64,000 nt of DNA from Microbacterium terrae (GTDB lineage: Bacteria; Actinomycetota; Actinomycetes; Actinomycetales; Microbacteriaceae). Position 1 is the first letter of the stretch; each line of letters begins with the position of its first letter. Location: contig NZ_JAFDSS010000001.1 of the NCBI RefSeq assembly GCF_017831975.1, forward strand, positions 2,542,001 through 2,606,000, read 5' to 3'. Both the position numbers and the translations under genes were made by a program. Under the pieces are notes generated by a model that worked only from the letters and a program-made list of their open reading frames with translations, made no database searches and was not told the DNA's origin. Positions 42,329-44,961 of this stretch are shown piece by piece.

Positions 42329-42982
42329 ATGTCCGACGCCCTCATCCTCGACGCCCACGCGGTGCTGTGGTCGGGCGACCGCGACGCCGTCGCCGGGCGT
42401 CCGCTGCTCCTCCTCCTCCACGGCTACGGCGCCGACGAGCGCGATCTCCTCGGGCTGAGCGCCTATTTCCCCGAGGAGTTCACGGTCGCGAGCCTCGCGG
42501 CGCCGCTCGCGCCCCCGTGGCCGATGCCGGGCCGCTCGTGGTACCCGATCGACGGCCTCGACGGGCGCAATCCCGCCCACGTCACCGCGGCCGCGCAGGC
42601 CGTGATCGACTGGGTCGACGCGCATGCGGCGGATGCGGCATCCGTCGGTCTTCTCGGTTTCTCGCAGGGCGGTGCGGTCTCGCTCCAGGCGCTGCGCCTC
42701 CAGCCCGAGCGCTTCGCATTCGTCGTGAACCTCTCGGGCTACGCGACGCCGGGCGACCTCCCGGGCGACGCCGCCCTGGCCGAGGTGAAGCCGCCGGTCT
42801 TCTGGGGCCGCGGCACCGCCGACGACGTGATCCCCGAGTTCGTCATCGAGCACAGCACGACGTGGCTCCCCGAGCACGTCGACCTGAGCGGGCGGGTGTA
42901 CCCGGGGCTCACCCACAGTGTGTCGGAGGCCGAGATCGCCGACGTGCGGGTGTTCCTCGAGAAGCAGCTCGAGCGGGCCTGA
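42329..42982 (+). CDS. Phospholipase/carboxylesterase-family alpha/beta hydrolase
   Basis: 217 residues. LLLLLHGYGADERDLLGL forms the oxyanion region, nucleophile Ser112 sits in LGFSQGGAVS, the acid is Asp165 or Asp166 (GTADDVIP) and the base is His196 (YPGLTHSVS). The size and motifs match YpfH-type carboxylesterases. The substrate is unknown. ATG 42329 follows AGGATGAGG. It is divergent from the NUDIX-like gene with 133 bp between. Confidence 0.88.
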   Translation: MSDALILDAHAVLWSGDRDAVAGRPLLLLLHGYGADERDLLGLSAYFPEEFTVASLAAPLAPPWPMPGRSWYPIDGLDGRNPAHVTAAAQAVIDWVDAHAADAASVGLLGFSQGGAVSLQALRLQPERFAFVVNLSGYATPGDLPGDAALAEVKPPVFWGRGTADDVIPEFVIEHSTTWLPEHVDLSGRVYPGLTHSVSEAEIADVRVFLEKQLERA

Positions 42983-43018: not shown

Positions 43019-43245
43019 TATGGTTGACGGGCTCCTGTCCCGAGTGTGAGGAACACCGTTGAAGCTGATCGACGCGTCCGCGATCTGAATCCGCGCTGAT
43101 CCGTCGATCCCGACGGTCCGCGACATCCATCGCGCCGACCGTCGATCCGGCCGCTTCCTCCTCGGCAGCTGCACGCCTCCCATCGGGGCGCCTCCGAGGT
43201 GATCGCCGGCTCCGCCGTCAGCGCACGTCTGACCCAGGAGGCCTC
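43019..43245 (+). promoter_or_regulatory. Putative attenuator leader of the ABC-F gene
   Basis: A -10 candidate TATGGT (43019-43024) is followed by a leader of about 215 bases. It holds a nine-codon open frame, a hairpin of 8+4 bp (CGACGGTC 43111-43118 with GACCGTCG 43137-43144, and CGCG/CGCG inside), and two copies of GCCTCC (43175-43180, 43190-43195) complementary to the GGAGGC that contains the ABC-F ribosome site (43237-43242). This layout fits ribosome-mediated attenuation. Confidence 0.5.
43059..43088 (+). CDS. Leader peptide MKLIDASAI upstream of ABC-F
   Basis: TTG start with GAGGAA 5 bases upstream (43048-43053), eight further codons and a TGA. The peptide is nine residues. It ends 157 bp before the ABC-F ATG. 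Drug-stalled translation of such an upstream frame is known to induce many ribosome-protection genes; for this peptide it is an inference. Confidence 0.45.
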   Translation: MKLIDASAI

Positions 43246-44961
43246 ATGCCGACCCACACCCTTTCTCCATCCATCGTCCTCGACCGCGTCTCGTTCACCT
43301 GGCCCGACGGCACCACCGCGCTCACCGACCTCTCCGGGTCGTTCGGCACGGGCCGCACCGGCCTCGTCGGACGCAACGGATCGGGGAAGTCCACCCTGCT
43401 GCGCATCGTCGCGGGCGAACTCGCCCCTGCCGCAGGTCACGTCATCGCGAACGACGACGTCGCCTATCTTCCGCAGCGGCTGACGCTCGACGTCGAACGC
43501 GCCGTCGCCGACCTGCTCGGCGTCGGCGACACGCTCCGCGCCCTGCGCGCGATCGAGTCGGGCGACGTCGACCCGCGTCACTTCGACGCGGTCGGCTCCG
43601 ACTGGGACGTCGAGGCGCGCTCGCACGCGGCCCTCGCCGAAGCCGGCCTCGCACCCGACATGCTCGACCGCCGCGTCGGCGAGCTGTCGGGCGGCGAGGC
43701 GGTGCTCACCGCCATCGCCGGCATCCGGCTGCGCGGTGCGCCGATCACACTGCTCGACGAGCCCACCAACAACCTCGATCGCGATGCGCGGGCGCGGCTG
43801 TACGACATGGTGCGCGGATGGCGCGGCGCACTCGTCGTGGTGAGCCACGACGTCGCCCTCCTCGAGCTGGTCGACGACACCGCCGAGCTGTACGGCAGCG
43901 AGCTGTCGGTGTTCGGCGGACCGTACTCGCAGTGGCGGGCGTGGCTCGACGCCGAGCAGGGTGCCGCGCGCGACGCCGAACGGGCGGCGCGTCAGGCCCT
44001 CCGCCGCGAGAAGCGCGAGCGCATCGAGGCCGAGACCACGATCGCGCGGCGCGCGGCGATGGGCCGCAAGGCCCAGCTCGAGAAGCGCGTGCCGCCGATC
44101 GTGGCGGGCAATCTCCAGCGGGCCGCGCAGGTCTCGGCCGGCAAGCTCCGCGGCGAGAAGGCGGACCGTGAGGCGACGGCGAGGCAGAGCCTCGACGCCG
44201 CCGAGCGGCGGGTGCGCGACGACGACCTCGTGAAGATCGACCTGCCCGATCCGGGCGTGCCCGCGGGGCGACGCATCCTGACCCTGGCCGACGGTGCGCG
44301 GTCGTGGACCGTGCAGGGCCCCGAGCGCGTGGCGCTCGTCGGCGCGAACGGCGCCGGCAAGACGACGCTGCTCGAGCAGCTGCTCACCCCCGCCGCCCCG
44401 ACGGCCTCGCCGGCACCCTCGCCGGGGGCTTCTGTGCCTAATGCAGGACGGACGCAGCGCGACGCCGACGGGACCCCCGGAATTCCGGGGGTCCCCGAAG
44501 CGCCCGCCGCATCCATCCTGAGTACGGCACGCGGGCAACTGCACACCGACCGCGTCGGGTATCTGCCGCAGCGGGTGGACGGGCTCGACGAGGATGCCTC
44601 GGTGCTCGAGAACGTCGCCCGTGCGGCGCCGGGCGTGAGCACGGTCGACCTGCGCAACCGCCTGGCGCGCTTCCTCATCCGGGGCGCGATGGTCGATCGC
44701 CCGGTGTCGGCGCTGTCGGGAGGCGAGCGGTTCCGCGTCGCCCTGGCGCGCCTGCTCCTGACCGACCCGCCGCCGCAGCTGCTGGTGTTCGACGAGCCGA
44801 CGAACAACCTCGACCTCGACACGGTCGATCAGCTGGTCTCGGCTCTCGCCGCCTATCGGGGCGCGGTGCTCGTGGTGAGCCACGACGACGCATTCCTGAA
44901 GCGGCTCGGCGTCGACCTCGTGCTCGATCTCGATCGCGACGGCACGCTCACCGAGCAGTGA
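43246..44961 (+). CDS. ABC-F family ATPase (ribosome-protection type)
   Basis: 571 residues with two ATPase domains and no membrane segments. NBD1 has Walker A GRNGSGKST (Lys49), LSGGEAVLTAIA and LLDEPTNNLD. An Arg/Ala/Glu-rich interdomain linker spans about 235-325. NBD2 has GANGAGKTT, LSGGERFRVALARLLL and VFDEPTNNLDLD. ABC-F proteins act on the ribosomal exit site; many give resistance to macrolides, lincosamides or pleuromutilins. NBD2 contains an unusual 40-45-residue Pro/Ala/Ser insertion soon after Walker A, encoded around a perfect 26-bp palindrome at 44470-44495. The structured leader upstream suggests inducible expression. Confidence 0.9.
   Translation: MPTHTLSPSIVLDRVSFTWPDGTTALTDLSGSFGTGRTGLVGRNGSGKSTLLRIVAGELAPAAGHVIANDDVAYLPQRLTLDVERAVADLLGVGDTLRALRAIESGDVDPRHFDAVGSDWDVEARSHAALAEAGLAPDMLDRRVGELSGGEAVLTAIAGIRLRGAPITLLDEPTNNLDRDARARLYDMVRGWRGALVVVSHDVALLELVDDTAELYGSELSVFGGPYSQWRAWLDAEQGAARDAERAARQALRREKRERIEAETTIARRAAMGRKAQLEKRVPPIVAGNLQRAAQVSAGKLRGEKADREATARQSLDAAERRVRDDDLVKIDLPDPGVPAGRRILTLADGARSWTVQGPERVALVGANGAGKTTLLEQLLTPAAPTASPAPSPGASVPNAGRTQRDADGTPGIPGVPEAPAASILSTARGQLHTDRVGYLPQRVDGLDEDASVLENVARAAPGVSTVDLRNRLARFLIRGAMVDRPVSALSGGERFRVALARLLLTDPPPQLLVFDEPTNNLDLDTVDQLVSALAAYRGAVLVVSHDDAFLKRLGVDLVLDLDRDGTLTEQ
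44470..44495. repeat. Perfect 26-bp palindrome inside the ABC-F gene
   Basis: The half-site GGGACCCCCGGAA is followed directly by its exact reverse complement, with no spacer. It is translated as part of GTPGIPGVP in the NBD2 insertion. Confidence 0.9.

Follow-up and report, generated by a model that had tools for sequence, protein, structure and literature searches.

A short-frame leader with two alternative pairings upstream of an ABC-F gene in Microbacterium: a probable ribosome-mediated attenuator

The leader of an ABC-F ATPase gene in Microbacterium carries a very short reading frame set among conserved pairings of two mutually exclusive kinds, namely an OFF state (A:B together with E:F), which buries the ribosome site of the gene, and an ON state (B:E). 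We consider it very probable that this leader is a ribosome-mediated attenuator, most likely translational, responding to drugs that stall the ribosome early. An earlier note on this DNA had proposed that the ABC-F gene stands under a leader-frame attenuator sequestering its ribosome site, and the comparative evidence supports that proposal.

The locus and the ABC-F protein

The window, i.e., the whole stretch of DNA analysed (64,000 nucleotides), corresponds to bases 2542001-2606000 of a 3.9 Mb single-contig Microbacterium genome. A phospholipase/carboxylesterase gene (Abhydrolase_2) ending at 42982 is followed by the leader, the ABC-F gene and an Lhr-type helicase. The features are given below with position, strand and, in brackets, the evidence for each.

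43019-43024, +, -10-like hexamer TATGGT, the likely leader promoter (all 125 relatives have TANNNT at 38-42 nt 5' of the frame, against 6.7% in shuffles)
43032-43041, +, conserved 5' stretch CTCCTGTCCC (strongly conserved in the Microbacterium leader alignment A1)
43048-43053, +, ribosome site GAGGAA of the leader frame, 5 nt 5' of the TTG (sequence; its GG invariant in alignment A1)
43059-43088, +, leader frame TTG...TGA, MKLIDASAI* (equivalent frame in 125 of 125 orthologous leaders)
43067-43082, +, segment A (GATCGACG.GTCCGCG), inside the frame, partner of B in the OFF state (A:B pairing statistics, 109 sequences)
43093-43110, +, segment B, GCGCTGA-T-CCGTCGATCC, just 3' of the stop of the frame (GCGCTGA(C) nearly invariant across family loci)
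43111-43144, +, segments C and D, strong hairpin CGACGGTCCGCGA/TCGCGCCGACCGTCG (MFE structure)
43175-43180 and 43190-43195, +, GCCTCC copies (sequence)
43208-43213, +, anti-ribosome-site GGCTCC, partner of GGAGGCC at 43237-43243 (local fold; CUCC:GGAG helix conserved)
43217-43224, +, segment E, GTCAGCGC (B:E pairing in 13 family leaders; RNAalifold)
43229-43233, +, segment F, CTGAC, closing a hairpin with E (GTCAG) in the OFF state (E:F covariation)
43236-43241, +, main ribosome site AGGAGG of the ABC-F gene, buried in the OFF state (local fold)
43246-44961, +, ABC-F ATPase gene, 571 aa, ATG at 43246 (Pfam, NCBIfam, AF2 model)

Judging from the sequence, the leader transcript probably starts near 43031; no good -35 was found upstream of TATGGT at 43019-43024. 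Segment B has two possible partners, A (OFF) or E (ON), and in the window the TCAGCGC of E (43218-43224) is perfectly complementary to the GCGCTGA of B (43093-43099). The C:D hairpin is an insertion found in longer leaders, while the element burying the main ribosome site is the conserved hairpin that adjoins it (43208-43243).

The TTG frame MKLIDASAI with its own GAGGAA and the strong hairpin (CGACGGTCCGCGA...TCGCGCCGACCGTCG), both pointed out in the earlier note, are present at the positions given above. The two GCCTCC copies, which that note regarded as complements of the main ribosome site, are present as well (P ~0.025 on the window), but they lie in the variable middle of the leader and are not the conserved sequesterer. 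They were found in 15 of 68 representative relatives compared with 7.9 expected by shuffling, and this mild enrichment led us to reject them in that role; the conserved element in their place spans 43208-43233, and the actual partner is GGCTCC/GTCAG at 43208-43221.

The product of the downstream gene is an ABC-F ATPase. Pfam ABC_tran was detected in two stretches of the 571-aa protein, the AF2 model presents a two-helix linker (residues 227-327) between two ABC domains, and ABC-F structures are among the best fold matches of the model. The structure search made the ABC-F fold clear and did not separate the ARE from the housekeeping subfamily. The best NCBIfam model was NF000355 (ribosomal protection-like ABC-F), with 288 bits and thus under the cut-off of 380, so that "resistance gene" is a reasonable guess; the gene is probably of the ribosome-protection type, and the group to which the protein belongs may lie outside the training set of NF000355. 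Among relatives of the gene in public genomes, those that carry a name come overwhelmingly from Microbacterium.

Conservation of the frame and of the alternative pairings

A search of 149 Microbacterium genomes detected the ABC-F protein in 126, and 125 orthologous leaders were used. All 125 have a short frame at the same place, preceded by a ribosome site of its own; a few of the frames escaped the automatic rule and were placed by eye from their position in the alignment. The frames start with TTG (88), GTG (29) or ATG (8), stop with TGA (95) or TAA (30) and consist of 2 codons in 48, 5-9 in 53 and 11-13 in 24 leaders. The nine codons reported in the earlier note therefore hold for the window, while frame length is lineage-specific, ranging from 2 to 13 codons elsewhere. 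The distance from the frame to the main start is 103-293 nt (median 166).

These data bear on a different reading, according to which the leader is a structured RNA sensing a ligand or a protein, or a case of plain translational coupling, with the short frame being incidental. The strong conservation of the RNA combined with a loose peptide sequence would suit it. Nevertheless, start codon and ribosome site are kept in 125 of 125 leaders with TTG, GTG and ATG interchanging, and the pairings are arranged around the frame and, in prefix folding, flipped only by a ribosome on the first codons. Furthermore, Rfam gave no match at gathering in the window and none even at E<=1 in the leader, a conserved non-pairing pocket was not apparent, and the gap of 100-290 nt between frame and gene is too far for direct coupling. 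We thus regard this reading as highly unlikely.

The leader peptides include MKLIDATAL, MTEIVAAAQ, MKNVDASAPLSAR and MRNLAVA, as well as plain M-I-stop in 47 leaders. Conservation of the peptide, a check suggested in the earlier note, is seen in part, since the frame is always kept while the exact peptide is not maintained past the first codons or between clades; the RNA core is constant. The pattern MK-x-[IV]-D-A is common in Microbacterium leaders, as might be anticipated if an MKLIDA-type nascent chain together with a drug of the macrolide type arrested the ribosome late in the frame. Against such a peptide-specific arrest, the M-I-stop clade, with practically no peptide, keeps the switch, and for a ribosome that has reached the later codons or the stop no switching is predicted. 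In addition, the nucleotides of A that code for the peptide are also RNA-pairing nucleotides, which makes the conservation of the peptide explicable. Peptide-specific arrest is in our opinion quite unlikely.

In a tree of 61 ABC-F proteins, a branch with SH-aLRT 99 separates those with M-I-stop leaders from the rest, and the two-codon form would most simply have had a single origin, after which it was retained. The nucleotides that elsewhere code for the rest of the peptide persist in these leaders as RNA (alignment A1).

Two further observations concern the upstream part of the M-I-stop leaders. In many of them, GACAGGA at the main ribosome site has its exact complement, TCCTGTC, within the 5' stretch (CTCCTGTCCC in the window); the 5' stretch takes no part in the A-F pairings. 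A repeated promoter-region motif, GACACGCCCGGG(G)TTGCG / GACACGCCCGGGTATCGT, was also observed 5' of M-I-stop leaders (e.g., L015, L016, L018, and L020) and suggests a shared regulator or promoter type.

Regarding the OFF state, 78.5% of the A:B cells are paired in 109 Microbacterium leaders compared with at most 50.6% for slid partners, and the covariation score is 0.098 against 0.065 in shuffles (0 of 500 as high), a strength that is indicative, as in the other shuffle and self/non-self tests below, kinship not being fully removed. A clean A-U to U-A exchange is found in A:B at alignment columns 63:101; it coincides with the M-I-stop clade and therefore counts as one event on the tree, and MTEIV-type leaders are mismatched at this position. 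In 16 family leaders, E:F plus the helix between site and anti-site is 93.0% paired (slid, at most 45.1%) with a covariation of 0.116 against 0.068 (1 of 500 shuffles as high, again indicative), the CUCC:GGAG helix itself being 90.6% paired. In 68 divergent Microbacterium representatives, the duplex of E with its own F reaches -15.99 kcal/mol compared with -13.25 kcal/mol for the F of others (z -8.8), and the same self against non-self comparison gave z -6.3 for A:B and z -3.2 for B:E, equally to be read as indicative. The whole OFF state is 89.5% paired in 13 family leaders and at most 49.2% when slid. Covariation of the hairpins had been set beforehand as a refuting test, and A:B, E:F and the site helix do covary.

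The ON pairing, B:E, is 98.9% paired in the 13 family leaders compared with at most 47.8% when slid, and it was picked by RNAalifold unaided. In leader L141 a change in B is matched by a change in E; B:E covariation is otherwise scant because this pairing hardly varies. One position of E alternates between C and T, with F following by G or A and the G of B tolerating both (G-C or G-U), the pattern to be expected of an E constrained to pair with F as well as with B.

When taken alone, the leader of the window folds slightly better than shuffled sequences (z = -1.70; 9 of 200 shuffles as good), and with so modest a z a single sequence cannot decide. This value would be in line with chance features of GC-rich intergenic DNA, a reading refuted by the conservation and covariation in about 150 leaders, and its probability is in our view close to nil.

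Beyond Microbacterium, the gene is present in 39 of 150 genomes of the family (Microbacteriaceae). A compact version of the leader was found in 18 of those family leaders and in 3 from other families of the order. It has approximately 90-124 nt between frame and gene and encodes peptides such as MKFFDGFAPQSAR, MTDSTGFATTR, and MTDLGSSVPR, and TCAGYGC (E) lies just 5' of the main ribosome site. The compact frames end in ...CGCTGA (one in ...CACTGA), so that the stop codon belongs to the GCGCTGA element; across the leaders, B is thus either just 3' of the stop or overlapping it. Tamaricihabitans halophyticus (Pseudonocardiaceae; L203) carries a 64% identical ABC-F, the same leader core and an MRNPDAIA frame, and on this similarity the gene and its leader were probably acquired together by transfer.

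A different leader frame, M..E-V-D-R-L-stop (e.g., ATGGAGATCGAGGTCGACAGACTCTAG), was observed 5' of an ABC-F relative in L157, L217 (Cryobacterium), L218 (Herbiconiux), and L221 (Leucobacter). These leaders are devoid of the GCGCTGA/TCAGYGC core and, within the same gene family, apparently represent a second class of leader. An element search of the whole source genome returned one strong match (E 5e-15), and no further copy was convincing (next match E 0.19). The sole other-family match at E<0.001 in a 149-genome sample of the order (G264, L140) corresponds to the start of a DnaQ-like exonuclease gene and was rejected as a chance match.

Predicted behaviour of the leader with a ribosome on the frame

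According to the mechanism that we propose, the promoter would yield a leader RNA beginning near 43031, and ordinary ribosomes would finish translating the short frame and dissociate. While standing at the stop, a ribosome would cover B, and after its departure A would re-pair with B; E would then pair with F, and the adjoining GGCTCC:GGAGGCC helix would bury the ribosome site of the ABC-F gene (OFF). A drug holding the ribosome on the first codons would instead place its footprint over A and leave B free to capture the emerging E (GCGCTGA:TCAGCGC) ahead of the synthesis of F. With E already taken by B, F and the main ribosome site would stay open and the ABC-F protein would be made (ON). In longer leaders, B:E would enclose the C:D hairpin in its loop, which is the prediction for the window, or the signal would be relayed through B:C and D:E.

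Release of the main site by blocking the start of the frame was not seen at full-length equilibrium, the mean unpaired fraction of the site in 125 leaders being 0.222 when free and 0.212 when blocked (0.26 and 0.24 in the window), while other family leaders presented a weak trend to release (P = 0.05). The switch model consequently needs an order of pairing during transcription, which we infer, and prefix folding was used instead, i.e., folding of the RNA up to the end of E, the point at which the leader would commit to one pairing, with a ribosome placed on the first codon. Under these conditions B:E, in terms of computed tendencies, rises from 0.0005 to 0.89 in the window, from 0.01 to 0.87 in the M-I-stop clade, from 0.20 to 0.80 in short leaders and from 0.53 to 0.83 in other family leaders, compared with 0.05-0.19 in shuffled controls with a stalled ribosome. 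When the footprint was shifted along the window leader, only P-site offsets of 0 to approximately +18 nt raised B:E, and a ribosome near the stop (+24) covers B, with B:E at 0.01.

In the same computations, stalling in long leaders raises D:E in 24 of 42 and B:E in 15 of 42. In the window with a stalled ribosome, B:E is predicted to form with C:D kept, the expected C:D pairs increasing from 6.5 to 11.5. An obligatory six-segment domino in all long leaders is thus only partly supported, as some lineages use B:C and D:E and the window is predicted to use B:E directly.

By analogy with known systems, induction would probably come from drugs that arrest the ribosome at initiation or immediately afterwards, such as pleuromutilins, lincosamides, and streptogramin A; we infer these drugs, like the resistance role. 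As for the output, the same sensor could act at transcription, with the OFF hairpin or the naked leader RNA causing early termination (by a U-tract-less intrinsic terminator or a Rho-dependent one) that stalling would prevent. Actinobacterial terminators often have no U tract. Two Streptomyces genes, lmrC (PMC8546547) and are5sc (PMC12421871), are controlled at transcription. On the other hand, the + strand of the leader yielded no terminator-like site (a G+C-rich hairpin with a U tract), the last conserved hairpin overlaps the main ribosome site, the helix between site and anti-site is itself conserved, and tiaA of Streptomyces looked translational. A transcriptional output is therefore possible but on the unlikely side, and translational control is preferred because of the absence of a terminator-like site on that strand.

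With somewhat less than even confidence, we further suggest that position rather than peptide is sensed: a ribosome on the first few codons would open the gene and one at the stop would keep it shut. Under this rule the frame could have been cut to M-I-stop in one lineage, and elsewhere a four-segment switch (A:B and E:F against B:E) could have gained an even-numbered insertion (C and D) with its logic unchanged.

Relation to known attenuators

This kind of control is already known, but its form here was previously undescribed, and none of the literature found describes such a leader in Microbacterium or in the rest of the family. The novelty lies in the GCGCTGA/TCAGYGC switch, in a frame of two codons, in the position rule that we predict and in the even-numbered insertion of a hairpin pair. 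If true, a large environmental genus of actinobacteria would possess a defined and conserved RNA that senses drugs stalling the ribosome early, and the series of four- and six-segment leaders would illustrate how such switches grow without a change of sign. The presence of the gene in 126 of 149 genomes further suggests that Microbacterium commonly carries an intrinsic gene of the resistance type that is probably inducible.

The genes tiaA and are5sc of Streptomyces coelicolor (ARE5 ABC-F) have very short leader frames (MVGDDDISG and MLV) and alternative hairpins in the 5'UTR, and respond to stalling at the start codon by lincosamides, streptogramin A and pleuromutilins, with the output of tiaA being apparently translational (PMC12421871). 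As they are described, the Microbacterium leader shares with them the actinobacterial ABC-F gene, the very short frame and the alternative hairpins; the peptides differ. In Streptomyces lincolnensis, lmrC is likewise an actinobacterial ABC-F gene with LSAP-responsive, ribosome-mediated control. Its attenuator, unlike the one proposed here, is transcriptional, with a frame that overlaps the terminator and whose removal leads to constitutive expression (PMC8546547).

Similar in having a minute leader frame, a stall close to its start (predicted for the Microbacterium leader) and a hairpin in which the ribosome site of an ABC-F gene is buried are also cplR of Clostridioides difficile (uORF MR[I/M], hairpin-buried ribosome site, translational attenuation shown; PMC10201436) and vmlR of Bacillus (uORF MIN; PMC9226507). 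These two additionally use U-tract terminators, whereas no terminator was found in the Microbacterium leader, of which a two-codon M-I-stop version exists. Finally, the exchange of hairpins around a leader frame and the release of a ribosome site, proposed here for the Microbacterium leader, are features of erm-type translational attenuators. The erm leaders rely on macrolide-dependent stalling well inside the peptide, at the tenth codon in ermBL (PMC8274638), whereas in the Microbacterium leader only early stalling is predicted to work.
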